In this document: in pieces, positions 26,328-51,459 of the stretch | Position numbering within the stretch: position 1 is the first letter of the stretch | Layout: each line of letters starts with the position of its first letter | NCBI GenBank assembly: GCA_947567625.1 | Contig: CANONN010000008.1 | Location: forward strand, 1-64,000 | From: an uncultured Roseburia sp. | GTDB taxonomy: Bacteria; Bacillota; Clostridia; Lachnospirales; Lachnospiraceae | Reading direction: 5' to 3' | Length of the DNA: 64,000 bases | Translations under genes and position numbers: made by a program | Notes under the pieces: model-generated | Told to the model about the DNA's origin: nothing | What the model saw: the letters and a program-made list of their open reading frames with translations, nothing else | The model's database searches: none

Positions 26328-27422
26328 TTAGACTAAAAATCTACACCCGGCATGTACGATATTCAGCACATCGCGATTTACCATAAAGTATAATGTAGAC
26401 AGCGTTTCCCCCACATATCCGATATAGCGGTCCGCACGCACATCTCCTTTGGGGGCAATCTGCTCCACTCTCTCCAAAATGGGAAACAGCCAACTGCAAT
26501 AATCCGCCAGAACCTTTTTGCGCGCCACTACAATATTATAATTGTATAAATACCGCTGCCGCAGGATTCCTTGAAACCGCGCTGCATACTCCGGCCGCAG
26601 TTCCCGCAGCGCGGTCCAGACGGCGTTCCAGTCCTCCTCTTTCAAATATCGCTCATGATGCGCTTCAATATCCGGTTCATAGGGCATCGGATAGGGTAGA
26701 ACCACATCCACGCCATTATCCGTCAGACGGTACACATCATCCTCCGACAAATCCAGAATCCTCCGATAATGTACCAGCCCATAGTAATCGCCGCCATCCG
26801 AAACGCCATCCTCCAACAGCCAATGTTTCCACATCCAGTAGAGCGCCGTCAATTCGGAATAATTAATATTTTTCTCCGATATATTTTCACCGTCACAATC
26901 CAAAAGATCCGCTACCCGCTCCTTACACAGCGCGGCCCCAACCTGAATCGGCGTAATCCAGTCCGGCGTGCCATACGGAGCAGACAGCGGCTTGTCTCTG
27001 TAAAATTTGGCCATCAACACACGAAGCTTTGCCCTGTGGTATCCGACCGGCAGCGATGCGAGCGGCAGATAACTTTTATCGGACGCGTAGTGATAGCCCA
27101 TAAGCATCGCCCAGCGCTCAGAGGTCAGACGAACATGTGCGCGCAGTCCGTGTTCCTCCAGGCTTCTTTCGATTTCCGGCATCACATTCTCCGGCGTCGC
27201 AATCAAAACCTCGATCTCGTTTTTTTCATCCTCTGAAAGGCTCTCTGCAAACGCGTCCAATGTATTGACCGGCACCCCAAACACCGTTCCCGCATTGATC
27301 TTGCGCTCCGTCACCAGAAAACAGCGGACCGTTCTCTGTGGATACAAATTGCTGATCGCCTCGCACGCGCCAAGAGCCATGCCCTGCGCTCCATAAATCA
27401 CTAAATCCATTTCCGCCCCCAT
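26328..27422 (-). CDS. DUF4422-type glycosyltransferase with N-terminal Rossmann-like domain
   Basis: 364 residues. Residues 5-110 form a Rossmann-like unit (DLVIYGAQGMALG, CFLVTERK, VLIATPENVMPEIE). Residues 150-360 are DUF4422: TPIQVGAALCKERVADL, NISEKNINYSELTALYWMWKH, YYGLVHYRRILDL and NIVVARKKVLADYC. DUF4422 proteins occur in capsule and exopolysaccharide clusters and are likely glycosyltransferases. It follows the sialyltransferase-like gene closely. A second ATG (27410) behind GGGGGCGG may be the true start. Confidence 0.75.
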   Translation of the reverse strand: MGAEMDLVIYGAQGMALGACEAISNLYPQRTVRCFLVTERKINAGTVFGVPVNTLDAFAESLSEDEKNEIEVLIATPENVMPEIERSLEEHGLRAHVRLTSERWAMLMGYHYASDKSYLPLASLPVGYHRAKLRVLMAKFYRDKPLSAPYGTPDWITPIQVGAALCKERVADLLDCDGENISEKNINYSELTALYWMWKHWLLEDGVSDGGDYYGLVHYRRILDLSEDDVYRLTDNGVDVVLPYPMPYEPDIEAHHERYLKEEDWNAVWTALRELRPEYAARFQGILRQRYLYNYNIVVARKKVLADYCSWLFPILERVEQIAPKGDVRADRYIGYVGETLSTLYFMVNRDVLNIVHAGCRFLV

Positions 27423-27429
27423 TCTTTTC

Positions 27430-28806
27430 TCATGTCAGTATCCCATACCGATAGAGAATGTCCTTATGCACATCCACCTCGTACCCATCCGAAAAGATAT
27501 GCATACATGTGGTGCCCCACATAACGATAATCTTTTTCAGAGCAATGCCCGTCCAGGTGAGCATCTGAATCGGAAACTGTTTCGGCAGTATCTTGTACTC
27601 CGGCATCATCCTGCCGTAGTCCACATGGTCCGACGGGTGCGGTTTGATCAGGATGCGGCCGCTGTCATATTGGGACAGCAGTTCACGGTACATTTCTACC
27701 TGCTTTTGATCGGAAATAACGTCGTCGCCATTCATAAAAGAGTAGGCTTCCGTCAAAAACAAGAAATCCCTCCCCTCCTCCACCAGCGTTAAAATCTCGT
27801 CATAGGGGAAAGAATACAAATCGGCAATCATTCTCTTTTCCGGTTCGCTCTTACCGCTCCACAGCGCAGACGGCTCGATGCACACCGCTTTTTTTGTAAG
27901 CTCCGGCGGCACACTCATAAGTCCAGTCAAAATCACCTTATGCACCAGACGGTCAAACCCAAACGGATAGTAGACACGTCTGTCGTCCAACATCGTCTGA
28001 TAGGTGACTGCATGGCGAAACGCATAATTCGCATCGCCGTCCTCAATCACTGTAACGGAATTTTCCAAAAAAGCCCGCGCGAGGAACATATGGTCATGTC
28101 CGTACACCGGAATATCATGCGCCCTGGCATAGGCGGCGATCAGATAACAGATATCGTAAAATTCTCCGGCAGACTGCTCATAAAGACACGGGATACCATA
28201 CGCCGTCATCTTTTCCGCAACCGCGGCAGGGAAAAAATGTTCGGCTATGTATAAGGCATCCTGCCAGTCCGGCAGCGCCAGGAAACTAAGTAACTGCGTG
28301 TAGGAGGTTCCCACCAGCACGATCTTTCCAATCTCTGCCGGCTCATTCGCCGTCATCTTTTTGACAAGCTCCAGCGCAGGCGGCTGTATGCGCCGCACAA
28401 AATCCACATGATGCAGTTTACAGGCGGCAGTCAGCGCATAGACGGATACCGGCGCGGCATTTTTGAATCTCTGGCGAATCCCCCCGGCGATATTGTTCCA
28501 ATCCGATAAAACCACCACCAGCACTTTTACTTCCCGATAACTGCCGAGCAACGGCGGCAGCGCGGCATTGTCCATCCCATACACCGGCAGCCGGTCGAAC
28601 TGCTCCATATCGTGGGAGCGGTCGATAAAACAGAGGACATTGACCCACTCTTTGAGCTCAAAATAAAGCTCCCTGCCCAAAAAATCCAGGCCATAGATAA
28701 TCAGCGGTTCCCCCTGCGCAAAACATTCTCTAACCGACCATTCGCTCCGCCTAAACTGCAGCAGGTCAAATGCAATATTTCTCTGATGTTCTGTGCTGTA
28801 TCTCAT
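27430..28806 (-). CDS. Sialyltransferase-like (GT52 / polysialyltransferase-type) protein with N-terminal Rossmann-like domain
   Basis: 458 residues. Residues 32-125 are a Rossmann-like unit (EPLIIYGLDFLGRELYFEL, LCFIDRSHD, VLVVVLSDWNN). The rest resembles bacterial CMP-sialic-acid-dependent transferases of the GT52/GT38 type: KIVLVGTSYTQLLSF, YGHDHMFL, and the C-terminal KPHPSD with a distal WGTTCMH stretch. In this locus the natural donor would be the CMP-nonulosonate made by the Leg-type enzymes. Its ATG overlaps the stop codon of the CMP-transferase gene (TCATGA, four bases), which couples donor synthesis and transfer. Confidence 0.65.
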   Translation of the reverse strand: MRYSTEHQRNIAFDLLQFRRSEWSVRECFAQGEPLIIYGLDFLGRELYFELKEWVNVLCFIDRSHDMEQFDRLPVYGMDNAALPPLLGSYREVKVLVVVLSDWNNIAGGIRQRFKNAAPVSVYALTAACKLHHVDFVRRIQPPALELVKKMTANEPAEIGKIVLVGTSYTQLLSFLALPDWQDALYIAEHFFPAAVAEKMTAYGIPCLYEQSAGEFYDICYLIAAYARAHDIPVYGHDHMFLARAFLENSVTVIEDGDANYAFRHAVTYQTMLDDRRVYYPFGFDRLVHKVILTGLMSVPPELTKKAVCIEPSALWSGKSEPEKRMIADLYSFPYDEILTLVEEGRDFLFLTEAYSFMNGDDVISDQKQVEMYRELLSQYDSGRILIKPHPSDHVDYGRMMPEYKILPKQFPIQMLTWTGIALKKIIVMWGTTCMHIFSDGYEVDVHKDILYRYGILT

Positions 28807-29582
28807 GACACCACCCGCTGCTTTCCCGCAGCAACCTGATAGACGGCCGCAAGCGCCGCGTCCTGCCTGCAATAATAGGGATGAAGATGCTCCATCATCA
28901 GAAAATCTTCTTCCGAATCAATATCCAGCACCAGATAATCCGACATCACCGCGATACCGCATCTGTAATCCAAAATGGTTTTTTGTATCTCTGACTCCAA
29001 AAATCGCGGGCGGTACGCGTAGATGCTGGCGTTCAATTCATAGGCCGCCGGCGCCTGCTGCCTCGCGGTATAAGCTGCCCCGCAGATTTTCTCGTAATAA
29101 CCGCTCTCTTTCTTTTCCACCATATTAAAATACGGACTGCGTCTCGCCGGGACGACGCTGTAGACCAAATCATATGCCTCGTTGGACCGATACTCTGCCA
29201 GCACCTGTTCCACGTCTAAGACGCGGCGCATCGGAGACGTAATGTCGAGATCTACGACAACATCAATGCGCTTTTCCTGTTTCAGGGCAAGGTATGTGTC
29301 TTTTATCACATCCACCTTTGGCGTGATGTCCCCCGCCAGTTCGGCTTTCCGCTCCACCACATGAATTTCAGGAAAAATAGCCTGCCTTTGTGCTTGCCCG
29401 ATCAGTTCCCCGCTGTCGGTATTGAGCGCCACTGACACATGATCATCCTGATGTGCTTCCTGATAAAGGCGGATGGCAGCCAGTGTATAGTAAAGCAGCG
29501 GCACCCCGCGCAATTGTTTCAGATTCTTATTTTGAAATCCCTTTGAGCCTGCCCGCCCGCAGACGGTAAACAGTACATTCAT
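28803..29582 (-). CDS. CMP-nonulosonate synthetase (LegF/NeuA-like)
   Basis: 259 residues beginning VLFTVCGRAGSKGFQNKNLKQL, the CTP-binding loop of acylneuraminate cytidylyltransferases. It continues with VALNTDSGELIGQA, VVDLDITSPMRR and a C-terminal LVLDIDSEEDF with conserved Asp residues. It activates a nonulosonic acid as its CMP derivative in the cytoplasm. Given LegB, LegC and PtmE homologues in the same operon, CMP-legionaminic acid is more likely than CMP-Neu5Ac. The start at 29582 has AGGAGG nine bases upstream; the open frame extends 30 codons into the previous gene. Confidence 0.85.
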   Translation of the reverse strand: MNVLFTVCGRAGSKGFQNKNLKQLRGVPLLYYTLAAIRLYQEAHQDDHVSVALNTDSGELIGQAQRQAIFPEIHVVERKAELAGDITPKVDVIKDTYLALKQEKRIDVVVDLDITSPMRRVLDVEQVLAEYRSNEAYDLVYSVVPARRSPYFNMVEKKESGYYEKICGAAYTARQQAPAAYELNASIYAYRPRFLESEIQKTILDYRCGIAVMSDYLVLDIDSEEDFLMMEHLHPYYCRQDAALAAVYQVAAGKQRVVS

Positions 29583-29596
29583 CTCTGCCTCCTGTA

Positions 29597-30529
29597 TCAT
29601 AAACATACATTTTTTCCCCTTGTGATGCGCAGAACCTCGCACGCCTCCCCGATACCGTGATCGCAAGCGCACGTTCCCGCGGCAATCTGAAGAAAATGCC
29701 CCAGCTCCCTTTTTTGAAATTCATCCCTCTGCTGCGACAAATCCATCACTTTCCCCTGCCTGGCCCATTCTATTTTTTGATGATGCAGATCTGCATAGAT
29801 CGTGTCCTCCTCACCGAAAAGCTCAATCTTTCGGACCGTCTCTCTGCCAAAATAGTCCAGATGCAGTTCCACAACCTTATCTGGGTAATCGGCGATATAA
29901 ACTGCGATATCGTCCGCATCTATTTCCAGGCGCGATTTTTTCTCGATCAAACTTTTCACCTCTCTTGGCGCCCCGGCCAGGTAGTAGATATAATCCCACT
30001 CGTGCACCAAATCCACGGAGACGCCGCCGCCCATACTGCGGTGCGCGCTGTAGGTATCACGGTAATCTGTTCCCGGACGCCAGTCCGGCAGATAGCTTGA
30101 CGAGATACAGCGCATCGCATAGATCTTGGAAAAGTCAATCTGTTCTTTCAGATAGCGTATCACGTTCGTATAGCGCAGCGGACAGGCGACATAGTACGCT
30201 TTCTTCGGCAGTAAAAAGGGGCTGATGTCCTCCTCACCTGTTGCAAACACGGGCTTCTCGATGAAAAAGCAATCACTCTTATCCTGACAGGCAAGCAGCG
30301 TATCATAATGCAGCGCGGTCGGATTGGTGATAAATACCGCGTCATAGCGGCTCAAAAGCTCACAGGAATGGTATATAGTACGATCAATTCTCCCTGCCGT
30401 CTCCCGATCCGGCTCTGCCCCGTTACCGCTGCGCAGCACCGTGATATGGACGTTGTCCTGGCACAGCGCTCTTAAATTTCTGATGTGGCGCCTAGCGATC
30501 GAACCAAGCCCTATAAACAAAACTTTCAT
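29597..30529 (-). CDS. Gfo/Idh/MocA-family NAD(P)-dependent oxidoreductase (1)
   Basis: 310 residues: KVLFIGLGSIARRHIRNL as the dinucleotide-binding turn, AVFITNPTALHYDT, FFIEKPVF with the conserved EKP motif, and SMGGGVSVDLVHEWDYIYYL. These enzymes oxidise or reduce hydroxyls of sugars and nucleotide sugars. Relatives accompany nonulosonate genes in several bacteria (PtmF/LegX-type contexts). It overlaps the start of the preceding reductase gene by four bases. The two reductases share only the general fold, so they probably act on different steps. Confidence 0.8.
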   Translation of the reverse strand: MKVLFIGLGSIARRHIRNLRALCQDNVHITVLRSGNGAEPDRETAGRIDRTIYHSCELLSRYDAVFITNPTALHYDTLLACQDKSDCFFIEKPVFATGEEDISPFLLPKKAYYVACPLRYTNVIRYLKEQIDFSKIYAMRCISSSYLPDWRPGTDYRDTYSAHRSMGGGVSVDLVHEWDYIYYLAGAPREVKSLIEKKSRLEIDADDIAVYIADYPDKVVELHLDYFGRETVRKIELFGEEDTIYADLHHQKIEWARQGKVMDLSQQRDEFQKRELGHFLQIAAGTCACDHGIGEACEVLRITRGKNVCL

Positions 30530-31503
30530 CTGCGTCCCTCAATCTCATCAATGATCGTTAATGTATACTGATCGTCCAAAAGAGAGTAGCGCGGCGTCTT
30601 GTTCTGATACACCATAGCAAGAAAATCGGCGATCTCGTCCGCATAGCGGTTTTCAATAATAAAATCGGCGTAACCGTCCACATGCTCAGCGGCGTCGTAA
30701 GTCTCCACCGGACACATCGTCGCCGTTTCCACATCATACACACAAAGATCATCATTGTGGCCGTCCCACAGTAAATGCATATCCTCGCCGATAATCTCCA
30801 GATGCACCGCCGCCTTTCTCGAGACCGTGTCGGCAACAAATACGCCGACCGCACCGCTCTCATGACGAAACGTTACCGCCACGCTGTCATCGAAATCAAT
30901 TTCCAGCTGCGTACATCTGTGCGACATTACAGACAATTCTTCTATCTTGCCGAACGTGTGCAAAAGCCACGGCAGCTGAATCGCCAAAATCTCCCGGACG
31001 CCGTTGGTCTCCTTTTTGCCGATAAAGAAATCCTGATAGCTCTCCCAGGGATGCCAGTCCGGCAGATACTGCCCCACATGGTACAGATAAGTCAGCGGCT
31101 TTTTCTGCGCTTTCACCATACGGTCAATTGTCTCGATTCTCTTGTCATAGAGCATGGTGCTCGACATAAATACCGCGGTATTTCTCTCCTCTGCCAGAGC
31201 CATGATGCGGTCATAATCATCGTCGACCAGATTGAGTTCCGTAAAGACATGTATCCCGGCATCCACCAGCTTTAAGATCAGCCCGGCATGATTGCCGGGC
31301 GATGTACAGACAAACGCAAGGTCCGGTTTCTCTTCGAGCGCCTGCGCCAAATCTTCATATGCCCGCAGTCCCTGTGCGCCGGCCTGCTCAAGGCGTGACG
31401 GATTTTTGTCCACACAGAGAATCTCTGCGGCGCCCTCCAACTGTTGCAGCAGACGTATCCTGCGTTTCCCCATAGAGCCGTAGCCGACAATCAAAACTTT
31501 CAC
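30526..31503 (-). CDS. Gfo/Idh/MocA-family NAD(P)-dependent oxidoreductase (2)
   Basis: 325 residues starting at a GTG (31503), with AGGAGG seven bases upstream. Motifs are KVLIVGYGSMGKRRIRLL (cofactor turn), FVCTSPGNHAGL, and HVFTELNLVDDD, where the usual EKP is replaced by ELN, so the catalytic lysine position differs from the family norm. The companion gene downstream keeps EKP. Role is unknown; modification of a sugar in this locus is likely. Confidence 0.78.
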   Translation of the reverse strand: MKVLIVGYGSMGKRRIRLLQQLEGAAEILCVDKNPSRLEQAGAQGLRAYEDLAQALEEKPDLAFVCTSPGNHAGLILKLVDAGIHVFTELNLVDDDYDRIMALAEERNTAVFMSSTMLYDKRIETIDRMVKAQKKPLTYLYHVGQYLPDWHPWESYQDFFIGKKETNGVREILAIQLPWLLHTFGKIEELSVMSHRCTQLEIDFDDSVAVTFRHESGAVGVFVADTVSRKAAVHLEIIGEDMHLLWDGHNDDLCVYDVETATMCPVETYDAAEHVDGYADFIIENRYADEIADFLAMVYQNKTPRYSLLDDQYTLTIIDEIEGRR

Positions 31504-31515
31504 TTCGCATCCTCC

Positions 31516-32316
31516 TCATCCTAAGTCGCACATGCTCGCTTCATTGGTCTTCGCCTTCCAGGTGTCGGAATACGCATCCGCAAACTTTTCAAATGTGACA
31601 TCAACATGCTGTTTCTTTTCGAGAACAAGCGCCCACTCATAAAACCGCTCCGGCATCACCTCCGTATAGCGGTCGTTGGCAAAATCGCCCCGGTACGCAT
31701 AATACCGCCGCTGTTTAAACGTGACGTAAGGCTTAAGCTGCGCCTCCATATCACTGACATCCGTAAAATAATTGGGATGCCCCTTGCCCCTGGCCGCCTC
31801 CTCGGCAATATACGCCTGCTCGTCGTTTGTATGATAACGCGTATTCTTTCCCGTAATCAGAATCGTGCCTCCCTCTTTGCAGACGCGCAGCATCTGGGAA
31901 AGCGCGCTCTCCTGATAACAGGCGTCAAATACGCCGAAGCAGATGATCTTATCAAAAGAATTGTCCGCAAACGGAAGTTCTTCCCCCTCACCCACGGTAA
32001 ATTTACCGGCGTTCTCAGGGAATCTTCTCACACATTCGTCAATCATGCTCTGCGAGATATCAATCCCGTAATAATCGGTGCGCGACCCAAAAAACGGATA
32101 AAAACGTCCAAAACCGCACCCGTAATCCAAAAGCCGGTCCGTTTTCTCATAATGCAGCGTCTCAAAAAAGCGAATCATCACTTCCTCGCCCGGCGTCTTA
32201 TAATCTCCCTCCGTCGTTTTCTTGATGTGGCTTACGGCTCCCTCGCTGTTGGCTTCCGTCGTCGCCTCCCTCCAGTATTTCGTATATTCTTGATTCCAGT
32301 ACTCTTTTCTGTCCAT
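31516..32316 (-). CDS. Class I SAM-dependent methyltransferase
   Basis: 266 residues; LLDYGCGFGRFYPFF is motif I, YYGIDISQSMIDEC the acidic loop and LPFADNSFDKIICFGVFD the post-I region. No membrane segment. Sugar O- or N-methylation is likely from context, for example of the nonulosonate, but the acceptor is not visible. The start at 32316 follows GGAGG by seven bases and lies inside the end of the epimerase gene: the two frames overlap by 119 bp. Confidence 0.82.
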   Translation of the reverse strand: MDRKEYWNQEYTKYWREATTEANSEGAVSHIKKTTEGDYKTPGEEVMIRFFETLHYEKTDRLLDYGCGFGRFYPFFGSRTDYYGIDISQSMIDECVRRFPENAGKFTVGEGEELPFADNSFDKIICFGVFDACYQESALSQMLRVCKEGGTILITGKNTRYHTNDEQAYIAEEAARGKGHPNYFTDVSDMEAQLKPYVTFKQRRYYAYRGDFANDRYTEVMPERFYEWALVLEKKQHVDVTFEKFADAYSDTWKAKTNEASMCDLG

Positions 32317-34464: not shown

Positions 34465-34466
34465 CC

Positions 34467-35090
34467 TCACTTCACCAGTCCCTTTACATTTTGACGCGCA
34501 CTAACGCTACGCACCACCGTGCTTCCGGCGCCCACGACCGCGCCGTCGCCTACGCCAATCCCTTGAATGACCGTAGCCCCCGCTCCGATCAGCACATCGC
34601 TTCCGACGCTCACGCCCCCGCATAAAACCGCGCCAACTGCGACATGCGCAAAATCTCCGACCACGCAGTCGTGCTCCACGATCGCCCCCGTATTGATGAT
34701 CGCCATCCGGCCAATCTTAGCGTCCGCATTGACCACAGCTCTTTTGGCGACAAATACGCCCTCGGCCAGTTTCGCATACGGTGAAACACATGCCAACGGG
34801 TCAACGATAGCCGGCAGTGTAAAACCGTATTCTTTTAACTGTAGAAACAAGGAGCGCCGAACCGCCGTGCTCTTTACGCTGCCCACCGCGACAAACGCTT
34901 CGGCAAATCCCGCTTTTTTCAGCTCCGGCAGCGCCGCATCATCACCTGCAACTTTTACATCGAGCACGTTTCGGCAGTCAGGATACGCCGCGTCGACAAT
35001 GATGATCTCGTCATATTGCTGCATCCGCCGCAGCGTATCGATCACGGATTTGCAGTGGCCTCCGCCGCCGACAAGAATTAATTTTTTCAC
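34467..35090 (-). CDS. NeuD/PglD-type N-acetyltransferase (LegH-like)
   Basis: 207 residues from a GTG start behind GAGGATAAG. An N-terminal PglD-type Rossmann unit (KKLILVGGGGHCKSVID, IIIVDAAYP, AFVAVGSVKS) precedes a left-handed beta-helix of hexapeptide repeats (INTGAIVEHDCVVGDFAHV, LIGAGATVIQGI). EHDCVVGD contains the catalytic His. It acetylates the 4-amino group of the UDP- or GDP-linked sugar made by the dehydratase and aminotransferase encoded upstream, completing the di-N-acetylated intermediate. Confidence 0.85.
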   Translation of the reverse strand: MKKLILVGGGGHCKSVIDTLRRMQQYDEIIIVDAAYPDCRNVLDVKVAGDDAALPELKKAGFAEAFVAVGSVKSTAVRRSLFLQLKEYGFTLPAIVDPLACVSPYAKLAEGVFVAKRAVVNADAKIGRMAIINTGAIVEHDCVVGDFAHVAVGAVLCGGVSVGSDVLIGAGATVIQGIGVGDGAVVGAGSTVVRSVSARQNVKGLVK

Positions 35091-36506: not shown

Positions 36507-36520
36507 AGCGCACGCTCCTT

Positions 36521-40098: not shown

Positions 40099-41259
40099 CT
40101 AAACATCATGCCACACGATTTTATCATCGGGGATTCCCCGCTGTTTCAGTTGTTCGGCGATCGCGTCCTTCACGGCCTTGGAATAGATGGCGATCACGAT
40201 ATAATCAAACTCCAGATGCAAGTCCACGATCTCCGTATTCTGCACGCCAAGCGCGCCGTATGCGCGATCGTTGCTGTCGACCCAGGCAACAACATCACAG
40301 TAATGAAGACGCTCTATCTGTCCGCGGTAGATACGCCCGACTTTTCCCGCTCCCCAGAGCACAATTTTACTCCCGGCCGATACCAGCTCAAACGGAAACA
40401 TATACTCGCCCTGCACCGCGATATCCCCGTAATAGTCTTTTCTCGCCTCCGCCAGATAAAGATAGAGATACTCGATCTGTTTTCTTGCCCCGGGGATTTC
40501 AGTGACATGGGCCGTCAAATGGCGATACCAGATATAGAGCTTATCAAAAAAATCGTCGTTGCGCAGATAGGCCGGCAGCTCGTCTGTTTCTTTGCGGTAA
40601 TGGTAGGGGTTTTCTTCCATGATATACACAGACTGCGCCCACTGCATCAGCGGATACAAGATCAGCGGGTCCTCGCCGTAATGAAGTTTTCCGATCTTTT
40701 CCGTCAGAGCATAACTGGCAAGCAGCAGCTCACGCTTGATGATTTTGTCACACAGCGACTGCGTGATTCCTGTTCTGCTGTTTTTGACGTCCCATATCAG
40801 CGTGGGATAAAGATTCTGTTCGATCTGCGCCCGGCTGTACGCGCCGAACGCATAATTTGATTTGGGAAACGTCCGGCCGCGCTCGCCTCTCTCGAGGATT
40901 TTGCCAAACACAATCACGTCGACGCCGTTCTCCCTGTGACATGCTGTCCTCTCATAGGCGTCGGCGTCCAGCCAGTCATCCGCATCCACAAACGTCACAT
41001 AGGTACTGTCACATGCCAGTAATCCGTTGTGCCTTGCCCGCAGAACGCCCAAATTCTCCTGATGCAACACTCGCACGCGCCGATCGCGTCCGGCATATTC
41101 TTCACAGATCGCCCCGCTGCCGTCGGTCGAACCGTCGTCCACCAGCACGATCTCAAGGTCTGCATCGGTCTGCGCGCAGATACTGTCCAAACATTCCCTG
41201 ATATGCGCTGCCATATTGTAAACGGGAACAATCACCGAAAGGCTCTTCCTACTACTCAC
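40099..41259 (-). CDS. Family 2 glycosyltransferase with C-terminal Rossmann-like domain
   Basis: 386 residues. Residues 8-230 are a GT2 domain: LSVIVPVYNMAAHIRECL, EIVLVDDGSTDGSG, and VTFVDADDWLDA (DxD). Residues about 290-386 form a separate Rossmann-like unit (KIVLWGAGKVGRIY, VVAWVDSND, FDYIVIAIYSKAV). No membrane segment. The start is a GTG at 41259, only one base after the upstream stop codon. Donor unknown; one of the sugars made in this locus is likely. Confidence 0.82.
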   Translation of the reverse strand: MSSRKSLSVIVPVYNMAAHIRECLDSICAQTDADLEIVLVDDGSTDGSGAICEEYAGRDRRVRVLHQENLGVLRARHNGLLACDSTYVTFVDADDWLDADAYERTACHRENGVDVIVFGKILERGERGRTFPKSNYAFGAYSRAQIEQNLYPTLIWDVKNSRTGITQSLCDKIIKRELLLASYALTEKIGKLHYGEDPLILYPLMQWAQSVYIMEENPYHYRKETDELPAYLRNDDFFDKLYIWYRHLTAHVTEIPGARKQIEYLYLYLAEARKDYYGDIAVQGEYMFPFELVSAGSKIVLWGAGKVGRIYRGQIERLHYCDVVAWVDSNDRAYGALGVQNTEIVDLHLEFDYIVIAIYSKAVKDAIAEQLKQRGIPDDKIVWHDV

Positions 41260-41260: not shown

Positions 41261-42784
41261 CTAACTCCAAACCACTTCTTCGAGCGAGAGAATCGGACAG
41301 CTCACCCGCCCCCGAAGTACATGATAAATATTGTCAAAATCATAAATAGCCGTTACCACAACGGCTGATATATCGTAAAATTCTTCCCGAAACTCGTCGA
41401 CGGAAACGGTTTTGCCGTCCGGCTTGGCACAGCGGTCGATGATGCACACGACTTCAATCTCCGCCTCCTTTAGCTCCTCGCAGAGACGTTTTCCCAGTTC
41501 GCCCCAGCCGTAGACGGCTATCCTGTTATAGCTGCGTTCCGATAAATACTGCGAAATACTCCTGCCCTGCCCCTTTAACTTGAGCCAGTGATTCAACAGC
41601 TCATAATTTTTCCGAAACTGCGCGATTCGCTTTCTCATGTCGGCAGTCTCGGGCGATACGCGCCCCGGCTCCTCAAGCGGCTCCCCGGTGCAGCTCTCTA
41701 AGCGTTCGACGCTCCGCTTGACTGCTTCCAGATACCGAAAGCCGTTTCTCTCGTCCGGCTCCAGATACATTCCCTCGCCCCACTCGTTCCAGGCGTTGAG
41801 AAACAAAAATTGATTGCCGGCGGCCGCGCTCTTTTCTAGCATACGGTCGAGACACGCCGCAAACAGCTCCGGCGTCCTGCCCTCGACCAGACAGCCGCCG
41901 TTTCCCCGGCGCGGCGTATCGTCGTACCCGGCGACGACGCTAAAATACGTCGTCGTGCCGTCAATCTCCGGGGCCTTTGCTCCCGCATTACAGAGCTGTC
42001 CGTACGGTTCCACCGTGACGCCCTCTTTCCGGCAGGTATGATTCAAGCGGCCTGACAGTTCGACATCCCGGTACGCCGACGGTCCCAATAGCAAAACCGC
42101 GTCAACGCCTCTTATGGCATGGTTGATGTTGACGCCTACGATATAGGGCCGCGGTATCCCCTCGCGCTTCGCCAGATTGTCCCAACATTCCAGCATCCTC
42201 TGAAGACAGAAGATTTTTTCCGGTTTATACAGGAGAAACACCGGACGTCCCTCGCAGGTGATATAGCGCCGGTCCGTAAAATAGGGAAGCAGCTCATAAA
42301 AATGCTTTTCCCAGGCGTCCTCCTCCCCATAATCCTGCTCTAACAGGACGCCGCTGCCCGCGTGCTCATTGGCCCTTTCCGTCTCAAACTTATCGCCCCA
42401 GCTGTTTTTGTCGCCCACATTGCTCCACGTCCTCGCCCACGTCTCGTTGGCCCAGCAAAAGCAAAACGGCATATCAATGTCTTTCCATTGCAGCAGCTGC
42501 TGGGCCGGTTTTTCGAGAATTTTGCGCCCGTTTTTAAAATAATAGTGATAAAAGCAAAATCCGTCTAACCTATATTTCTTAGCGAGCGCGGCCTGCCATT
42601 CCATCGTGCTTTTCTCGGAGAGATCATAATAGTACGCTCCATACGGCACATTGGGCTGCATGTGGCCCGCAAACAGCGGTTTCGCCGCTTTTACGGCGGT
42701 CCACTCCGTAAAGCCCTCTCCCCACCAGGCGTCATTTTCCGGTATTCTATGAAATTGGGGTAAATACATCGCGATTGTCTTCAT
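41261..42784 (-). CDS. WbsX-type (GH99-like) glycan protein with C-terminal Rossmann-like domain
   Basis: 507 residues. MKTIAMYLPQFHRIPENDAWW, GFTEWTAVKAAKPLFAGH, FCFYHYYF, PFCFCWANETW and the C-terminal FLNAWNEWGEGMYLEPDE define the WbsX/GH99-like TIM-barrel family, found in O-antigen and capsule loci and annotated as glycosyltransferase or endo-mannosidase-like. After a helical linker (NYELLNHWLKLKGQ), residues 415-507 are a Rossmann-like unit (RIAVYGWGELGKRLCEEL). The tail closely resembles the stand-alone membrane protein at 50944-51459. Confidence 0.8.
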   Translation of the reverse strand: MKTIAMYLPQFHRIPENDAWWGEGFTEWTAVKAAKPLFAGHMQPNVPYGAYYYDLSEKSTMEWQAALAKKYRLDGFCFYHYYFKNGRKILEKPAQQLLQWKDIDMPFCFCWANETWARTWSNVGDKNSWGDKFETERANEHAGSGVLLEQDYGEEDAWEKHFYELLPYFTDRRYITCEGRPVFLLYKPEKIFCLQRMLECWDNLAKREGIPRPYIVGVNINHAIRGVDAVLLLGPSAYRDVELSGRLNHTCRKEGVTVEPYGQLCNAGAKAPEIDGTTTYFSVVAGYDDTPRRGNGGCLVEGRTPELFAACLDRMLEKSAAAGNQFLFLNAWNEWGEGMYLEPDERNGFRYLEAVKRSVERLESCTGEPLEEPGRVSPETADMRKRIAQFRKNYELLNHWLKLKGQGRSISQYLSERSYNRIAVYGWGELGKRLCEELKEAEIEVVCIIDRCAKPDGKTVSVDEFREEFYDISAVVVTAIYDFDNIYHVLRGRVSCPILSLEEVVWS

Positions 42785-42804: not shown

Positions 42805-43899
42805 CTAATCATTCGCGGCAAAGTCTTCCAGAGCCGGCTTTGCCTTACAATTTTCCCACTCGATCTCACAGGCGACACAGTGCCCACAAAGCGGCACCTC
42901 TTTTGCCAATTCTTCCAACAGCTTAGCCCCCGACGGGCAGTTTGCAAGCTCCATAATGCCCTGGTTGGGCAAATTGGTGCCGAATGTCTCATTAAATTTG
43001 TCGATGTACATTAAGGTCGGGCATCTGGCGATCTTGCCCTCCCAGATATTGACGCATCCGTTGGAGATACACTTGTGCGGATGAACGGTGTGCTCGCTTA
43101 AGGTGAGCGGCCTTAAAAATTTTTCTTTGCTCGCAAACGGGCGTATGATATAGTCAATGCCGTTGGCTTCCAAGGTATCGCGTATCTGATCAATCATCTT
43201 ATGGGTCGGTTTATACTCCGAGATACTCACCACGACGCGGTTTGTTCGGATGCTGTCTAAGACTGCCCCGTCCAGCGACGGTATCAATAGACCGTTCGTC
43301 ACGATCTGCAAATAGGTGTCCGGCAAAATCTCGCGCAGCTTTGTCACATAGCGGGCGATCTCCTGATTTAAAAACGGTTCTCCGCCTAAAATAGAAAAAT
43401 GCAGGATATAGCTGAACTTTTCTTTCAGCCGCCGCACATCCGCAAGCCGCCCCTTAAAATCGGGCAGTGTCTTCTCAAAAATCGGCGAAAAATGCGTACA
43501 ACCTTTGCAGTTTAAATTACAGTAATCCGCTATATGCATCTCGACCTGCGGCAGGATACAGTCCCCCCATCCCGCGGCTGACAAACACTCTTTCTGAAGA
43601 AAATCATCATATGTCTTCTCGCCGCTCCTGCGGTTTAAGAAACAATAAATGTTGGAAAAACCGCGCTTTTTGAGCAAATAATAGATCTCGGCCGCTGCAT
43701 AGGGGTCTTCCACCGTTATTACAAAAGCTGTGTCTTTGTCGGCAACATCCCCGATCGGCAGGATTGGCCTGCCGCAGTAGCTTCCCGTCTTTCGGTTGTC
43801 TGCAAAACCGATGACCTCGTCGGCCGTCTTGTTCTCCGTCTCAAATAGCTCCAGCGCTTCGCGGCCTAGTTTCCCTGCGCCAAAAAATATAATCTTCAT
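42805..43899 (-). CDS. Radical SAM protein with N-terminal Rossmann-like domain
   Basis: 364 residues. Residues 1-95 are a Rossmann-like unit (KIIFFGAGKLGREALELFE, VIGFADNRKTG, AFVITVEDPYAAAE). The radical SAM motif CNLNCKGC has Cys127, Cys131 and Cys134, followed by LHFSILGGEPFLN. The C-terminus holds further cysteines (CISNGC, ARCPT, CGHCVACEIEWENC), as in SPASM/twitch proteins with auxiliary Fe-S clusters. It sits between glycosyl-modifying genes, so a radical modification of a sugar or a protein acceptor is possible. Substrate unknown. Confidence 0.82.
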   Translation of the reverse strand: MKIIFFGAGKLGREALELFETENKTADEVIGFADNRKTGSYCGRPILPIGDVADKDTAFVITVEDPYAAAEIYYLLKKRGFSNIYCFLNRRSGEKTYDDFLQKECLSAAGWGDCILPQVEMHIADYCNLNCKGCTHFSPIFEKTLPDFKGRLADVRRLKEKFSYILHFSILGGEPFLNQEIARYVTKLREILPDTYLQIVTNGLLIPSLDGAVLDSIRTNRVVVSISEYKPTHKMIDQIRDTLEANGIDYIIRPFASKEKFLRPLTLSEHTVHPHKCISNGCVNIWEGKIARCPTLMYIDKFNETFGTNLPNQGIMELANCPSGAKLLEELAKEVPLCGHCVACEIEWENCKAKPALEDFAAND

Positions 43900-43980
43900 A
43901 TATTCTGTGATACGCCTGCTTTCGCGTTGCGGCAGACATATGTCCTCCTAATTTAAGTTCTGCATCATCCCCGGAGCAAT

Positions 43981-45063: not shown

Positions 45064-45064
45064 A

Positions 45065-46414: not shown

Positions 46415-46427
46415 GCTACCCTCCCGT

Positions 46428-47204
46428 TTAAGCTTCCCATATTTTCCACGGCGCCTGTCCGTTCTGCCACATGGTTTCCAATTGTTCCTTGTCTCTTTTG
46501 GTATCTACGCATTGCCAAAATCCGTGATGCTTATAGCTGATAAGCTCTCCTTCTCTAGCTAAAGTCTCCAGCGGTTCCTGCTCGAATACCGTGCTATCAT
46601 CCTTCAAATATCGAAAAACTTCCGGTCCGACTACCATAAACCCACCGTTAATCCAGCCCGTATCCGCTTTACTCTTTTCCCGAAATGACAGTACCCGATC
46701 CCCGTCCAAATCCATTACGCCAAATCTTCCTTCCGGCTGAACTGCTGTCAATGTGATCATCTTGCCATGGCTTGTATGAAATGCGATCAATTTGTTTATG
46801 TCAACATCAGACACCCCGTCCCCATAAGTGAGACAAAACGGTTCATTATCTATGTATTTTTGAATTCGCTTAATTCTGCCGCCCGTCATAGTATCCAGTC
46901 CGGTATCGATCACCGTCACTTTCCACGGTTCTATATATCGGTTATGCACCTGGATCTGTTGTCCGTCTGTAAAATCAAACGTGATATCGCTGTTGTGAAT
47001 AAAAGCATCTGCAAACCATTGCTTAATCACATGCTGTTTATAGCCGGCACAAATGATAAATTCATTGATTCCGTAATGAGAATAAATCTTCATAATATGC
47101 CACAAAATCGGCTTTTCTCCTATCTCAATCATTGGTTTCGGCCGCAGATGAGACTCCTCTGATATTCTACTCCCGTACCCACCCGCCAAAAGAACTGCTT
47201 TCAT
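46428..47204 (-). CDS. rfbF: Glucose-1-phosphate cytidylyltransferase
   Basis: 258 residues. MKAVLLAGGYGSRISEES with LRPKPMIEIGEKPILWHI is the nucleotide and metal loop; LTYGDGVSDVDI and the C-terminal FWQCVDTKRDKEQLE are family-specific. It makes CDP-glucose, the entry of the dideoxyhexose route. 13-16 bp gaps to its neighbours show that the four dideoxyhexose genes are one transcription unit. Confidence 0.93.
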   Translation of the reverse strand: MKAVLLAGGYGSRISEESHLRPKPMIEIGEKPILWHIMKIYSHYGINEFIICAGYKQHVIKQWFADAFIHNSDITFDFTDGQQIQVHNRYIEPWKVTVIDTGLDTMTGGRIKRIQKYIDNEPFCLTYGDGVSDVDINKLIAFHTSHGKMITLTAVQPEGRFGVMDLDGDRVLSFREKSKADTGWINGGFMVVGPEVFRYLKDDSTVFEQEPLETLAREGELISYKHHGFWQCVDTKRDKEQLETMWQNGQAPWKIWEA

Positions 47205-47220
47205 ACTTACTTAACCTCCG

Positions 47221-48141
47221 TTAAAATTCGCCGTTTCGTTTACACTCCTCAAACAGCTTTCTCACGCCTTCCTCAAAAGAAATCTCCGGCCTGAAATCAA
47301 AATCCTCATAGAAACTATTGACGTCAAACTCATCATAGCGCAACGCGATTCCCATAAAAGGAACCGCCCCAAAATTGAGCTTTCCTTTATAATCGAGTAT
47401 TGTTTTCATGCGCAGTACAAATTCTTTTAAGGGATACTGTTTTTGATTTCCGATATAGTACTTTTTGTACGGCCGCCCCGCTTCTGCGATCTGTATCACC
47501 ATTTCGACGGCGTCTGTGATATAAATAAAATCGTAGAGCTGGCTGCCTTCCGTCAGGTCAACGCTTTCACATGTACCCATTTTGCGCACCATACTGTTGA
47601 TGAAACGAGGCGTTTTCTCTCCCTCCCCATAAATATTCGATATGATTACAGGCAAAAACTCTAACTGATACGATTTCGCAAACAATTCCGTCATCATATG
47701 CGCCGTCAATTTGGAAGCGCTATAGATATTTTGTATGCCAAACTCCGCCGCATTGTCCCCGATGAGATTATTGAGACAGTCAAATTCCATAATGCTGCCA
47801 AAATACACAAATCTGGGAATCTTTAATTCTTGCGTCAGCTTTACATAATCACAGGATACGCGCACATTTTCCAGCTGAACCCCGATATCGGACCGCAAAC
47901 TGCCGGAGGTTCCGCTCCAAGCGAGATCGAAAAAGACATCGGGCGGCATCTGTATTGCCCTAAGAAGCTCTTGCGTCGACCCGCACAATTCTCGGTAGCT
48001 GGGATGTCGGAACACAGCCTGCTTATTTTTTGTGATATTATAAACAAAACACCCCTTTTCCAGTAAACGCTTTACCAGCGCTTGTCCAAGAAAACCATTT
48101 CCTCCCGCGACAACTGCGCACTGCACGATATCATCTCCCAT
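47221..48141 (-). CDS. NAD-dependent epimerase/dehydratase-family SDR (CDP-sugar reductase candidate)
   Basis: 306 residues: AVVAGGNGFLGQALVKRL cofactor loop, PRFVYFGSIMEFDC, IYSASKLTAHM (YxxxK) and IISNIYGEGEK. SDRs in this position of dideoxyhexose clusters (AscF/RfbJ/RfbS) reduce the C4 ketone to give ascarylose, abequose or paratose. Sequence alone does not tell which product; the neighbouring epimerase argues for an L-sugar. It might alternatively epimerise an unrelated nucleotide sugar. Confidence 0.72.
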   Translation of the reverse strand: MGDDIVQCAVVAGGNGFLGQALVKRLLEKGCFVYNITKNKQAVFRHPSYRELCGSTQELLRAIQMPPDVFFDLAWSGTSGSLRSDIGVQLENVRVSCDYVKLTQELKIPRFVYFGSIMEFDCLNNLIGDNAAEFGIQNIYSASKLTAHMMTELFAKSYQLEFLPVIISNIYGEGEKTPRFINSMVRKMGTCESVDLTEGSQLYDFIYITDAVEMVIQIAEAGRPYKKYYIGNQKQYPLKEFVLRMKTILDYKGKLNFGAVPFMGIALRYDEFDVNSFYEDFDFRPEISFEEGVRKLFEECKRNGEF

Positions 48142-48174
48142 CCTGTTTTTATCCTTGCTGCAATTTCCAAAAAA

Positions 48175-48711
48175 CTACAGATAAAACGGCGATTGAAAAT
48201 CCGCAAACTTCACAAATGTTTGGTCTCTCTCCGAAAGAATCGGCGTTTTCGTATTCCAATCATAGCCTATACTGTCCCAGCGTATGCCCGTATCACTCTG
48301 CGGGGCATAGCCGGAGGAGACATAGTAAAGCATTAGCGTATCATCGCACAGAGTGCGAAATCCATGCGCAAAGCCGCAGGGAATATATAATGCTTTTGCC
48401 TCTTCGCCGCACAGACGGATAGAGAAGCATTTCCCGTATGTTTCGCTGCCTTTTCTTAAATCCAATATAACGTCCACAATCTCGCCGCGAAGTACATGGA
48501 CAATTTTTTCATGTTCATGCGGCGGAAGCTGAAAATGCATGCCGCGAATGACATCCTTTTGCGAAACCGAGTAATAGGATTCCTCAATCCGCGTATGGAT
48601 ACCAAATCGTTCCAGATTATCCCTGTTATAAATCTTCGTAAAGCTTCCCCTCGCATCGCCGTTATGAAACAGGTCAAGCACCTGCACACCCTTAAAATCT
48701 TCTATTGCCAT
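48175..48711 (-). CDS. RmlC-like (dTDP-4-dehydrorhamnose 3,5-epimerase family) epimerase
   Basis: 178 residues of cupin type: ARGSFTKIYNRDNLERFG, YYSVSQKDVIRGMHFQLPPHEH split over residues 47-68, IVHVLRGEIVDVILDLRKGS, and YIPCGFAHGF with the catalytic and metal-like His residues. AscE, the C5 epimerase of CDP-ascarylose synthesis, belongs to this family. Located next to rfbF/G/H, it suggests inversion of a CDP-4-keto sugar. ATG at 48711 with GGGGAG upstream. Confidence 0.85.
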   Translation of the reverse strand: MAIEDFKGVQVLDLFHNGDARGSFTKIYNRDNLERFGIHTRIEESYYSVSQKDVIRGMHFQLPPHEHEKIVHVLRGEIVDVILDLRKGSETYGKCFSIRLCGEEAKALYIPCGFAHGFRTLCDDTLMLYYVSSGYAPQSDTGIRWDSIGYDWNTKTPILSERDQTFVKFADFQSPFYL

Positions 48712-48725
48712 AGCTCCCCTCATTT

Positions 48726-49805
48726 CTAATCCGGCACAGCCTGTTTCCATTTTTTGATAAACTTTTCTTTATTTCTCAGATAAACGCGATCAGCGCCCGG
48801 TACTACGCCGTAGGTCACATTCTCATAATGGACAAACCGAAACCGCGCGTCCAAAACTACCCGATAGCCTCTTTTTTTCACTTCACAATAGAGATCTAAA
48901 TCCTCAAACCACGCCGGAATATAGCGTTCGTCATAACCGCCAATCTCTTCCCACAGGCTTCTTCTGACTGCCATACATGCAGCGCAGTTATAATCAATAT
49001 CAAAAACGCCCTCCTGGTAAGTATCGTTACCGCGAAGCTCCCCAACCTCCGTCATAAAACAGCCGTACGATAATCCGCCGATATCCCAGCCGTAACACGC
49101 GCCTCCAATATTGCCGACCGTTGCGTCATGCTCAAAATCCTCGACCAAAAAGTCCAGCCAATAATCGGTAACGATACGCACGTCATTCGATAGAAGGATA
49201 AGATATTCCCCGCGCGCCTGCTTTGCGGTTTCGTTACAGTTGCGCAGATAACCGATATCTGTCGGGTTATGTATCACTTTCACATTTTCTACATACGCCT
49301 CCATATTGCGCGTCTCGTCCTGCGACACGTTGTCACCGACAATCAGCTCATAGGCAATATTGGTCTTACACGCCAACAGGGATTTTAAACATTCATAGGT
49401 GTATTTCCAGCCATTGTGCGTTGTGAGAATAATTGACACTTTCGGCTGATCTGCTTTCGGAAAAATCAGCCTGTCATAGGTGTCATTTTTCTTTAAAAAG
49501 AGGTCTTTAAAAAGTACGACATTACAAAATCCCATTTCACCGAGTTGTGCGCTCATCTCTTTAAAAAAGTTGCTGGCAGCTACAACAACCGTATCCTGTG
49601 GGTCACACTCCCGCAGTTTCTCCGGTGAAATTATTTCATATCCCCCTACCTTTTGCCCGTCCTTCTCTTTATCATTATCGCAAAGGCACGCTATGCCAAC
49701 TTCATGCTCCCGCAAAATATCAATCACTTTTTTACCGATATAACCCGCTCCAAATATTACAATTTTTTTGCCGGTATCAGCTTGCTCTTTCAAATAATTC
49801 AACAT
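48726..49805 (-). CDS. Family 2 glycosyltransferase with N-terminal Rossmann-like domain
   Basis: 359 residues. Residues 12-105 are a Rossmann-like unit (KKIVIFGAGYIGKKVIDIL, IACLCDNDKEKDG, TVVVAASNFFKEM). Residues 120-340 are a GT2 domain with KVSIILTTHNGW, LIVGDNVSQDET, LLSNDVRIVTDYWL and YIPAWFEDLDLYCEVKKRG, similar to rhamnosyltransferase-like GT2 proteins. No membrane helix. Its stop region lies 14 bp upstream of the epimerase gene start, and its start overlaps the WbsX gene end by seven bases. Confidence 0.83.
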   Translation of the reverse strand: MLNYLKEQADTGKKIVIFGAGYIGKKVIDILREHEVGIACLCDNDKEKDGQKVGGYEIISPEKLRECDPQDTVVVAASNFFKEMSAQLGEMGFCNVVLFKDLFLKKNDTYDRLIFPKADQPKVSIILTTHNGWKYTYECLKSLLACKTNIAYELIVGDNVSQDETRNMEAYVENVKVIHNPTDIGYLRNCNETAKQARGEYLILLSNDVRIVTDYWLDFLVEDFEHDATVGNIGGACYGWDIGGLSYGCFMTEVGELRGNDTYQEGVFDIDYNCAACMAVRRSLWEEIGGYDERYIPAWFEDLDLYCEVKKRGYRVVLDARFRFVHYENVTYGVVPGADRVYLRNKEKFIKKWKQAVPD

Positions 49806-50896
49806 GTGCCCGTTTCCTCTCCAATAGCTTTTTTTACCGCTTTCAGATAGCCGTATCCATTTTTTTCATCCGGTTCGAGATAGGTGCCCTCTCCCCATTC
49901 ATTCCAGGCGTTGATAAATATAAATTCATTTCCCAATTTTCTGCTATTTTTCACTTGCCTCTCAAAATAAGCGCCAAATCCTTTTGGCGAGGCGCCGGCA
50001 AACACCAGCGTAGGATCTTTTTTGCGCCTAGCGGTATTATCCCAATCCACAAAAGCTCCCAAATATCTCGGTTTATCTGCGGCGGCGTAATGCTTGGTGC
50101 GCTCTGTCATATTCCGATAAAACCTCCGATAATCATAGATTGGCAAACGGCAACAAAGCGGCGCATGTCGCCAGCTCTTTATGATTTCTCCCGCGGTCAC
50201 GGGATAACGGTCATGATAACAGTCCATGCTGTAAAACGGTTCAAATTCAAACGACGCATCAAAGCCCATGATATCCCGCTGACCCACATAATGTCTGGTA
50301 TCAATAAAAAAAATTCCCTTCAGTCCGTTTTGGCGGGCCTGACCATTCATGAATTCCATCATGGCCGCACATCTTGGTATATCCATGGACCGATAAATCA
50401 AAAACAAGGGTTTTCCGTCTTTTTTTATGTATCTTGGGTCGCGAAAATACGGCAGCAAATACTCAAAATGCGCCCTCCAGTCGTCTTCTCCTCCATAGTT
50501 CTGGCGCATAATAATGGTCTTTCCCTCCTGATCACCCAACCACTTCTTGGACCAGGAACCATTCGCCCAGGAAAAACAATAATGAAAATTTTTATCCGGC
50601 AGATTTAAAATGTTTTCCACCGGTTTTTCCAGCAATTTTTTCCCGCAAAACCAATAGTGGTAGATACAGAATCCATAGATGCCGTATGCCTTTGCCAACT
50701 TCATCTGCGCCGACATCACTCCTTGTTCCAATAAATTATAGTAATGATGGCCGAGCGGAACCCTTGGCTGGTTGTGTCCCCAAAACAACGGTTGGGCTGT
50801 TTTTACATTGGTCCACTCGGTAAAACCTTTTCCCCAAAAACGATTATTTTCCGGTATCTCGTGATATTGCGGCAGATAAAACGCTAAAGCTTTCAT
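49799..50896 (-). CDS. WbsX-type (GH99-like) glycan protein (2)
   Basis: 365 residues. MKALAFYLPQYHEIPENNRFW, GFTEWTNVKTAQPLFWGH, FCIYHYWFCGKKLLEKP and FIFINAWNEWGEGTYLEPDE match the WbsX protein at 41261-42784 over the whole catalytic part, but this copy lacks the Rossmann tail. The tail-like domain is encoded separately by the gene immediately upstream (50944-51459). The start at 50896 has GAGGAAG nine bases upstream. Confidence 0.82.
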   Translation of the reverse strand: MKALAFYLPQYHEIPENNRFWGKGFTEWTNVKTAQPLFWGHNQPRVPLGHHYYNLLEQGVMSAQMKLAKAYGIYGFCIYHYWFCGKKLLEKPVENILNLPDKNFHYCFSWANGSWSKKWLGDQEGKTIIMRQNYGGEDDWRAHFEYLLPYFRDPRYIKKDGKPLFLIYRSMDIPRCAAMMEFMNGQARQNGLKGIFFIDTRHYVGQRDIMGFDASFEFEPFYSMDCYHDRYPVTAGEIIKSWRHAPLCCRLPIYDYRRFYRNMTERTKHYAAADKPRYLGAFVDWDNTARRKKDPTLVFAGASPKGFGAYFERQVKNSRKLGNEFIFINAWNEWGEGTYLEPDEKNGYGYLKAVKKAIGEETGTC

Positions 50897-50943
50897 GTGA
50901 TTTCTTCCTCGCTCTTTGATCGACAAACATTTGGCAGCGCCGA

Positions 50944-51459
50944 TTACAGATAATAGACAACATCGGACAGGGACAGGATATCGGCCTTTGTCCTCCCGCG
51001 CAACAGCTCGTAAATCTCTTCATATGCCTGCAGTACTGTCACGACAATAACATCCACCTCCGTATCGATCTCCTCCACGTTTAAAACCGGAATTCCCAGG
51101 ATTTCTCCCCCTTCTTCCTGATCAATAAAAAATTTTACCGAAAGTCCGGCGCCGCACAATTCTTCGCATAATCTCTGCCCAAAATTGCCGCCGCCGTAGA
51201 TCGCGATTGTTTTCCAGTTTCTCATGCGAAAAAAATCGCCTAAATCCTTATGGTGATTTTTCAAAAATATCCACTGACATGCCAGCTCATAGTAGCTCTG
51301 CATCTTTTTTAGTTCTCTCTTCGTATGGGAAAGTTTACCGGACAATGCCCGATAAAATGTCTTTGCACATAAAACCCCGCACAAATTTAGCAATAGCAGC
51401 AGGACAACTGCACTATAGGATGGTTTTCGTTTTTCATATTCCGTATCCGGCTTTTTCAT
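50944..51459 (-). CDS. Membrane-anchored stand-alone Rossmann-like protein
   Basis: 171 residues. A basic N-terminus is followed by one membrane helix (about 15-33, YSAVVLLLLLNLCGVLCA), a helical linker (YYELACQWIFLKNHHKDLGDFF) and a Rossmann-like domain (TIAIYGGGNFGQRLCEELC, VKFFIDQEEGGEILG, DVIVVTVLQAYEEIYELL). The linker plus domain correspond residue by residue to the C-terminal part of the WbsX protein at 41261-42784. The cytoplasmic domain would be tethered to the membrane, perhaps as a docking partner for the tail-less WbsX protein encoded next. Confidence 0.7.
   Translation of the reverse strand: MKKPDTEYEKRKPSYSAVVLLLLLNLCGVLCAKTFYRALSGKLSHTKRELKKMQSYYELACQWIFLKNHHKDLGDFFRMRNWKTIAIYGGGNFGQRLCEELCGAGLSVKFFIDQEEGGEILGIPVLNVEEIDTEVDVIVVTVLQAYEEIYELLRGRTKADILSLSDVVYYL

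Follow-up and report, generated by a model that had tools for sequence, protein, structure and literature searches.

The window analysed here is a stretch of 64,000 nucleotides at the start of contig CANONN010000008.1 (contig C8 below) from an uncultured Roseburia sp. (assembly GCA_947567625.1). It contains a glycan locus in which a small Rossmann-like unit had been placed in seven proteins by an earlier note, made from the letters of the DNA. We verified the seven sites, with their coordinates and their N-terminal, C-terminal or stand-alone placement, and conclude that all of them encode one module of ~90 residues. The sites, followed by three further features of the locus, are listed below, and proteins are referred to by the start of their coordinates. 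Bits are scores in a hold-out profile test described below.

27111..27413, minus strand: module, N-terminal in the DUF4422 protein 26328-27422; degenerate, with a GAQGMA turn and the Asp lost; 18.0 bits, marginal
28429..28713, minus strand: module, N-terminal in the GT52-like protein 27430-28806; second Gly lost, Asp kept
40102..40374, minus strand: module, C-terminal in the GT2 glycosyltransferase 40099-41259 (Pfam GT2); 41.7 bits
41264..41530, minus strand: module, C-terminal in the WbsX protein 41261-42784 (Pfam WbsX); 39.1 bits
43624..43899, minus strand: module, N-terminal in the radical SAM protein 42805-43899 (Pfam Radical_SAM); 44.2 bits
49488..49772, minus strand: module, N-terminal in the GT2 protein 48726-49805; 78.3 bits
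50947..51216, minus strand: module of the stand-alone protein 50944-51459; 60.5 bits; AlphaFold2 predicted local distance difference test score (pLDDT) 91.2
51364..51414, minus strand: predicted transmembrane segment in the stand-alone protein, at residues 16-32 with a mean hydropathy of 2.54
49799..50926, minus strand: second WbsX protein, without module, directly adjoining the stand-alone gene
34467..35090, minus strand: NeuD/PglD-type acetyltransferase with a related N-terminal fold, no module copy by the module profile

In the hold-out test, the training set contained no sequence from the genome of the window, no module of at least 35% identity and, for the fused copies but not for the stand-alone, no member of the same host cluster. 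Each of the seven proteins ranked first among 763, that is, the tested protein and 762 open reading frames (ORFs) without a module of at least 25 bits, true Rossmann enzymes included, which bears out the claim of one repeated unit. The match covered nearly the whole profile at five of the seven sites, and the likeness therefore reaches past the glycine turn. Protein 27430 scored 25.4 bits over profile positions 4-55 only, about half of its length. Protein 26328 is marginal by sequence alone, with 18.0 bits against 17.1 for its best negative and 20.3 for the best negative in any of the runs. Its assignment is strengthened because DUF4422 relatives bear a stronger N-terminal module at the same place (34-62 bits, 9 of 30 loci). 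With a first leave-one-out profile of 15 modules, every left-out copy outscored its shuffles; 26328 and 27430, at 18.2 and 16.7 bits, exceeded the best true Rossmann control (~13 bits) by a small margin, and L009:16794 carries a module that was level with this control at 13.5 bits. An earlier 12-row profile lacking the rows of 26328 and 27430 missed both in their own genome at E up to 0.01.

Pfam and NCBIfam detected the catalytic parts of the fused proteins (DUF4422, GT52, radical SAM, GT2 twice, and WbsX), in agreement with the claim that the module is attached to unrelated catalytic folds. Among the module sites themselves, only that of 48726 exceeded a Pfam cut-off in the full-protein scan (Methyltransf_14, 30.4 bits), and the other six gave matches below threshold to PglD_N, CoA_binding or TrkA_N, or no match. 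When the window was searched with the iterated profile, the seven sites were recovered together with one weak generic Rossmann match (Gfo/Idh protein 30526, 13.3 bits). The acetyltransferase 34467 was considered as an eighth copy and rejected, having no module-profile match at E < 0.01 and 5-12 bits in the first leave-one-out test, mostly under the Gfo/Idh control (8-13 bits). The likeness to PglD/NeuD enzymes seen by the earlier note thus holds in part: the N-terminal part of 34467 has a fold related to that of the module without being one of its copies, and PglD/NeuD is one of several relatives.

The module is distributed far more widely than the earlier note saw. Contig C7 of the same genome has another glycan locus, in which ten full copies of the module and a single fragment were found, among them copies on three FkbM methyltransferases, two on one open frame of 771 amino acids (aa), and one stand-alone; further module ORFs there were read as GT2-, GT32- and other glycan enzymes. 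The 12-row profile gave 16 matches in this genome, 15 of them on C7 and C8. Among 60 genomes of the family (own included), 23 had a match at E up to 1e-3, many being single weak matches and some forming dense clusters, for example 11 matches within 16 kb in genome G042. In the phylum, 189 of 299 genomes had a match at 1e-5, a count too high for the module because many matches were single ORFs of 206-243 aa or ~640 aa, sizes that would suit Rex and EpsC-type enzymes, respectively. Clear module clusters were nevertheless also found outside the family. A profile of the linker plus module, described below, matched at 1e-8 in 24 of 246 genomes of the order.

After removal of 7 of 169 matches that fell under 25 bits, 162 modules were retained; L120, a copy of L061, L122, a copy of L102, and five genes from stretches that overlap had likewise been dropped before counting. 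The modules lay at the N-end (81), at the C-end (51), in proteins under 210 aa (23) or internally (7). In 29 stretches with at least two module genes (window included), 151 of the 234 genes between the first and last module gene bore the module, and in the window 7 of 22. It should be noted that these stretches were chosen for holding modules, so that 151/234 is no random sample; it counts a few genes of overlapping stretches twice and omits L062, L063, L064, L071, L120, L122 and stretches with fewer than two module genes. At L009:4656-5867 on contig C7, a module ORF of 76 aa ends in an in-frame TAG and is followed 36 bases on by a same-frame ORF read as sulfotransferase-like, which may reflect a broken gene, a split gene or an assembly error.

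The AlphaFold2 models of the stand-alone protein and of the 27430 segment (pLDDT 83.5) were both Rossmann, showed the beta-alpha-beta features of a classical mononucleotide Rossmann fold and had top PDB relatives in common (e.g., 3nkl and Rex), so that the two modelled segments, at least, do not differ in fold. The most conserved non-hydrophobic positions of the module are those of the nucleotide pocket, namely aromatic-G-x-G and the Asp after strand 2. This Asp was kept in 83% of modules and the third Gly was absent in 38%; all four letters of G-x-G-x-x-G plus acid were present in 73 of 162. The pocket residues were conserved over modules from 32 genome labels. Outside the pocket, a Gly was kept in 68% and an Asp before strand 4 in 61%.

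The stand-alone protein is predicted, by AlphaFold2 and hydropathy, to form one long helix (residues 15-68, hydrophobic at 16-32), followed by a W..LK linker motif and the module. The same linker precedes the module of the WbsX protein 41261, and linker plus module was found at the C-terminal end of 7 of 9 WbsX proteins in the stretches examined. Such stand-alones are recurrent: 16 distinct linker-type proteins under 260 aa were collected, chosen by reading the linker, and 15 had a hydrophobic N-terminal stretch by a limit (1.39, mean over 17 residues) set after the values were seen. The charges flanking the transmembrane segment do not settle on which side of the membrane the module lies. The module-free WbsX gene 49799 beside the stand-alone, and a like arrangement in L123, might be taken for a split gene; this idea fails in a wider sample, in which only one of 14 module-free WbsX proteins, the window's own, had a stand-alone neighbour.

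Several arrangements around the stand-alones were also recorded. At L123:9378-10366 (Candidatus Galacturonibacter soehngenii), two different stand-alone module genes with hydrophobic N-ends lie in tandem, adjoining a module-free WbsX gene. At L103:3353-11497, one locus encodes three module proteins of the linker type, each with a hydrophobic N-terminal stretch and with other genes between them. In the window, the stand-alone gene adjoins 51464-54022, which encodes a protein of 852 aa that has no NCBIfam match at E up to 0.1 and that we read as CDP-glycerol-transferase-like; a relative (L009:2020) lies ~5 kb upstream of the stand-alone on contig C7. The genome encodes a third WbsX domain (G000:C62:4611-5639) in an open frame of 1621 aa, and no module was found in the 1343-aa piece of it that was examined.

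The module sits on more than a dozen unrelated enzyme families. Among 136 long hosts (of 138; L071 and L103:3353 not included), Pfam tallies in two halves gave GT2 13+13, radical SAM 5+2, GT1 4+3, TylF 4+3, WbsX 3+4, CDP-glycerol transferase 2+4, DUF4422 1+4, GT32-type 1+4 and LicD 2+1, among others. FkbM (8) and MptE-like (3) were counted in the first half, and Caps_synth (4) and deacetylase (2) in the second. Among the families listed for 83 module-free genes were GT1-type (10), Epimerase (7), GT2 (4), WbsX (2), and Epimerase_2, NTP_transferase and CTP_transf_3 (3 each). These tallies show the first 25 of 35, 40 and 83 families, and single members may be hidden. By phmmer, sugar-nucleotide enzymes made up 1 of 138 module-bearing and 18 of 83 module-free genes (p 8e-8), and 1 of 132 versus 5 of 68 (p 0.018) without the window, which was the source of the queries. 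The module thus accompanies enzymes acting on the growing glycan more than donor-making ones, most clearly in the window and more weakly elsewhere.

Module possession tracked that of neighbouring genes in three enzyme families sampled from the 246 genomes of the order, with a limit of 20 bits and 1.5 kb on each side. The WbsX sample comprised all 22 loci of 18 genomes, including a contig-end piece (L148) and a broken copy (L149); the DUF4422 sample 30 of 47 listed matches, one each for 30 of 31 genomes; and the FkbM sample one locus each for 30 of 65 genomes, best matches first, the target ORF of L215 being uncertain. A module-bearing neighbour was present for 8/8 module-bearing versus 2/14 module-free WbsX enzymes (p 1.4e-4), 6/9 versus 0/21 for DUF4422 (p 1.4e-4) and 7/14 versus 0/16 for FkbM (p 1.7e-3). 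These p-values are optimistic owing to near-duplicates (L137/L138, L146/L153 of one genome, L174/L175, L180/L181, L212/L213). Summed over the three families, 21 of 31 module-bearing but only 2 of 51 module-free loci had such a neighbour, in line with the earlier suggestion in so far as it links the module to enzymes that work jointly.

The module tree (FastTree, about 90 columns; mean identity between modules 20%) followed the partner enzyme, with 49 changes against 79.3 ± 1.9 when shuffled (z -16.3, 108 rows), and module position, with 42 changes against 68.7 ± 3.2. Modules of one genome showed no likeness beyond chance (129 changes, shuffled 132.2 ± 2.7, z -1.2, 162 rows). The nearest neighbour of a module was in the same genome in 20 of 162 cases (expected 7.3), a small excess, and in the same partner cluster in 76 of 162 (expected 9.1). 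The lack of grouping by genome argues against a locus-specific docking code, which was rejected. Our reading is that each enzyme class has an old module-bearing lineage of its own and that loci are built from such lineages. This pattern is easier to reconcile with a generic function common to the modules, be it one signal or a pairing surface of general use, than with a handshake that arose separately in every locus. Of the docking or ligand-sensing role proposed in the earlier note, ligand sensing fits the conserved pocket, whereas a locus-specific handshake is disfavoured by the tree.

Homology, predicted fold, placement, pocket conservation, neighbour co-occurrence and the predicted membrane helix are established here. 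From them we tentatively propose, as the leading reading though with somewhat less than even confidence, that the module is a nucleotide-responsive assembly or regulatory domain, similar to the cytosolic domain of WbaP and used across the glycan locus. In this reading, the module belongs with the WbaP cytosolic, FlaA1/EpsC N-terminal, 2g6t and Rex NADH domains to one group of Rossmann domains of the nucleotide-binding type. It is fused to, or encoded beside, enzymes that build or decorate the glycan (glycosyltransferases, WbsX, methyltransferases, radical SAM enzymes and phosphotransferases), and is mostly absent from those making sugar nucleotides. The glycine turn and the Asp after strand 2 make up its pocket, which may bind a small nucleotide, probably a uridine nucleotide or a sugar linked to uridine diphosphate (UDP), possibly nicotinamide adenine dinucleotide (NAD(H)). 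Modules would pair with other modules, as reported for the WbaP domain, and the state of the pathway could thereby control the activity or joint assembly of one locus's enzymes. The stand-alone protein, with its transmembrane helix, helical linker and module, would be a membrane-tethered member of the assembly. A stronger version, which we regard as unlikely, is a locus-wide assembly code in which nucleotide-gated modules on most acceptor-acting enzymes of many clostridial loci would be recruited by the transmembrane stand-alone, with uridine nucleotides switching the complex on and off.

We rank nucleotide-responsive pairing first because the WbaP-type domain is reported to be nucleotide-responsive and dimer-forming (PMC10942596 and PMC12802240, accessible text), followed by a pure docking tag and then by an enzyme-specific substrate domain. 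A docking tag, that is, a protein-protein domain joining the enzymes of the locus to one another, the membrane-anchored stand-alone being the hub and the pocket a relic, is possible though unlikely. It would account for the co-occurrence of module-bearing neighbours, the free placement (N-end, C-end, short proteins, internal), the predicted membrane-anchored stand-alones and the diverse chemistry of the partners, and it has a precedent in a coiled-coil protein described as the membrane-associated scaffold of a glycan enzyme complex (PMC11231755, accessible text). However, the strongest non-hydrophobic columns are those of the pocket, with only the Gly and the Asp before strand 4 outside it, and the tree does not group modules by genome. 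More doubtful is a substrate domain that serves each enzyme separately, by binding that enzyme's donor or acceptor, and does not connect the enzymes. PglD-type N-domains act in this way, PglD_N matched 12 of 54 modules at E up to 0.01, and the modules group by partner enzyme. Yet the same families occur without the module, and then nearly always without a module-bearing neighbour (WbsX 12/14, DUF4422 21/21, FkbM 16/16), so that the module is seemingly not needed for the chemistry.

A redox sensor that binds NAD(H) like Rex and couples glycan synthesis to redox state seems improbable. In its favour, Foldseek places Rex first, Rex also matches strongly by sequence, and most copies keep the Asp after strand 2; against this, a full dinucleotide-binding domain is longer than the 85-95 residues of the module, and the third Gly is often absent. 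Furthermore, a response to uridine nucleotides has been reported for the WbaP relative (PMC10942596, accessible text). Neutral hitch-hiking, in which a long-standing domain prone to fusion travelled along with glycan genes and serves no shared purpose, would fit the low identity between modules and the degenerate state of some, but it is very improbable given the pocket residues conserved across genomes and the tracking of neighbours in three enzyme families.

Several observations weigh against the preferred nucleotide-responsive pairing. Among the partners are many (methyltransferase, radical SAM, deacetylase) whose reactions yield neither UDP nor uridine monophosphate (UMP), and simple product feedback is therefore unable to explain them. 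Half of the module-bearing FkbM loci (7/14) lack a module-bearing neighbour within 1.5 kb, and modules of one genome are not alike on the tree. The only module-bearing sugar-nucleotide enzyme, L071, is an EpsC-type dehydratase and stands outside the 136 hosts. Two of the seven window copies are degenerate, and only 109 of 162 modules have G-x-G plus Asp in full, which also makes it unlikely that all copies bind a common nucleotide sugar, as the earlier note had suggested. In addition, the seven window proteins had no match to PF13727, the family of the WbaP domain, at E up to 1, and WbaP is a distant relative.

The way in which enzymes of a glycan pathway come together and are co-regulated is, to our knowledge, largely an open question. 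In the loci described here, one small domain recurs on many of the assembly enzymes, over more than a dozen unrelated folds, and has a predicted membrane-anchored stand-alone form. Its joint presence on enzymes and on a separate membrane-type protein suggests joint assembly or control through the module. If it senses a nucleotide, as reported for the WbaP domain, the control of flux beyond phosphoglycosyl transferases (PGTs) suggested in PMC10942596 (accessible text) would extend to methyltransferases, radical SAM enzymes and many glycosyltransferases. A full-text search of open-licence literature found no paper on the module in glycan loci, and no account of its locus-wide use, of the neighbour rule in three families or of the membrane-anchored stand-alone.

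Two features lie elsewhere in the window. Two overlapping ORFs in different frames at 21279-22456 together resemble one alpha/beta hydrolase gene, which is probably broken, and 24398-25396, beside the glycan locus, encodes a 332-aa protein with tandem EGLKEGRKEGLEEG repeats.

The fold and kind of the module are already known, and parts of the family are in Pfam as PglD_N, Methyltransf_14 and C2185-like_N. For PglD_N (PF17836, curated score 23.4 bits), 48726 scored 22.8 bits in the full-protein scan, 24.8 in the genome search and 25.9 as a segment, and the other window sites 18.5 bits or less, or no match. In PglD, NeuD and PerB, the N-domain is followed by a left-handed beta-helix acetyltransferase, whereas the window modules are joined to DUF4422, GT52, GT2, WbsX, radical SAM or nothing. 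Methyltransf_14 (PF08484, the C-methyltransferase C-terminal domain, 23.5 bits) was exceeded by 48726 only and matched 6 of 54 modules at E up to 0.01, and the window partners are not C-methyltransferases. The cut-off of C2185-like_N (PF22674, 27 bits), a family presumably resting on the Clostridium acetobutylicum structure 2g6t, was reached by none of the seven sites, only 40099 being listed (10.7 bits); in the own genome it was exceeded in one contig C7 open frame, twice. Rex, FlaA1-type and 2g6t domains are as close to the module as PglD/NeuD or closer, and PerB is a further relative.

The PDB relative 3nkl, which we take to be the N-terminal domain of a FlaA1/EpsC-type UDP-sugar dehydratase (the record says UDP-D-quinovosamine 4-dehydrogenase), is part of one dehydratase family, a context other than that of the module. 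The Rex repressor consists of an N-terminal winged helix and an NAD(H) domain. This NAD(H) domain gave the best Foldseek match (6.8e-5) and a sequence match of 8.7e-8, but the module aligned to this second domain only, from about residue 79 on, and the partners of the module are glycan enzymes. No window protein matched a Rex family except 48726, which matched the second part of Rex models only, at E 5e-4 or weaker.

The closest relative found with a reported function in glycan synthesis is the cytosolic domain of WbaP (PF13727, CoA_binding_3), and WbaP chains matched the module profile at about 5e-4. According to the accessible text of PMC10942596, this domain is stabilised by UMP, UDP and uridine triphosphate and destabilised by UDP-galactose (UDP-Gal), WbaP is inhibited by UMP with an apparent half-maximal inhibitory concentration (IC50) of 4.1 uM, the cytosolic domain provides the majority of the dimer contacts, and such domains may modulate flux more widely. 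In models of the WbaP dimer, and in those of EpsZ paired with its regulator, this domain is described as pairing sheet to sheet (PMC12802240, accessible text). In WbaP, the domain lies between a membrane bundle and the PGT catalytic domain, within a single kind of enzyme, whereas the module occurs on more than a dozen other enzyme families and in a separate, predicted membrane-anchored protein.

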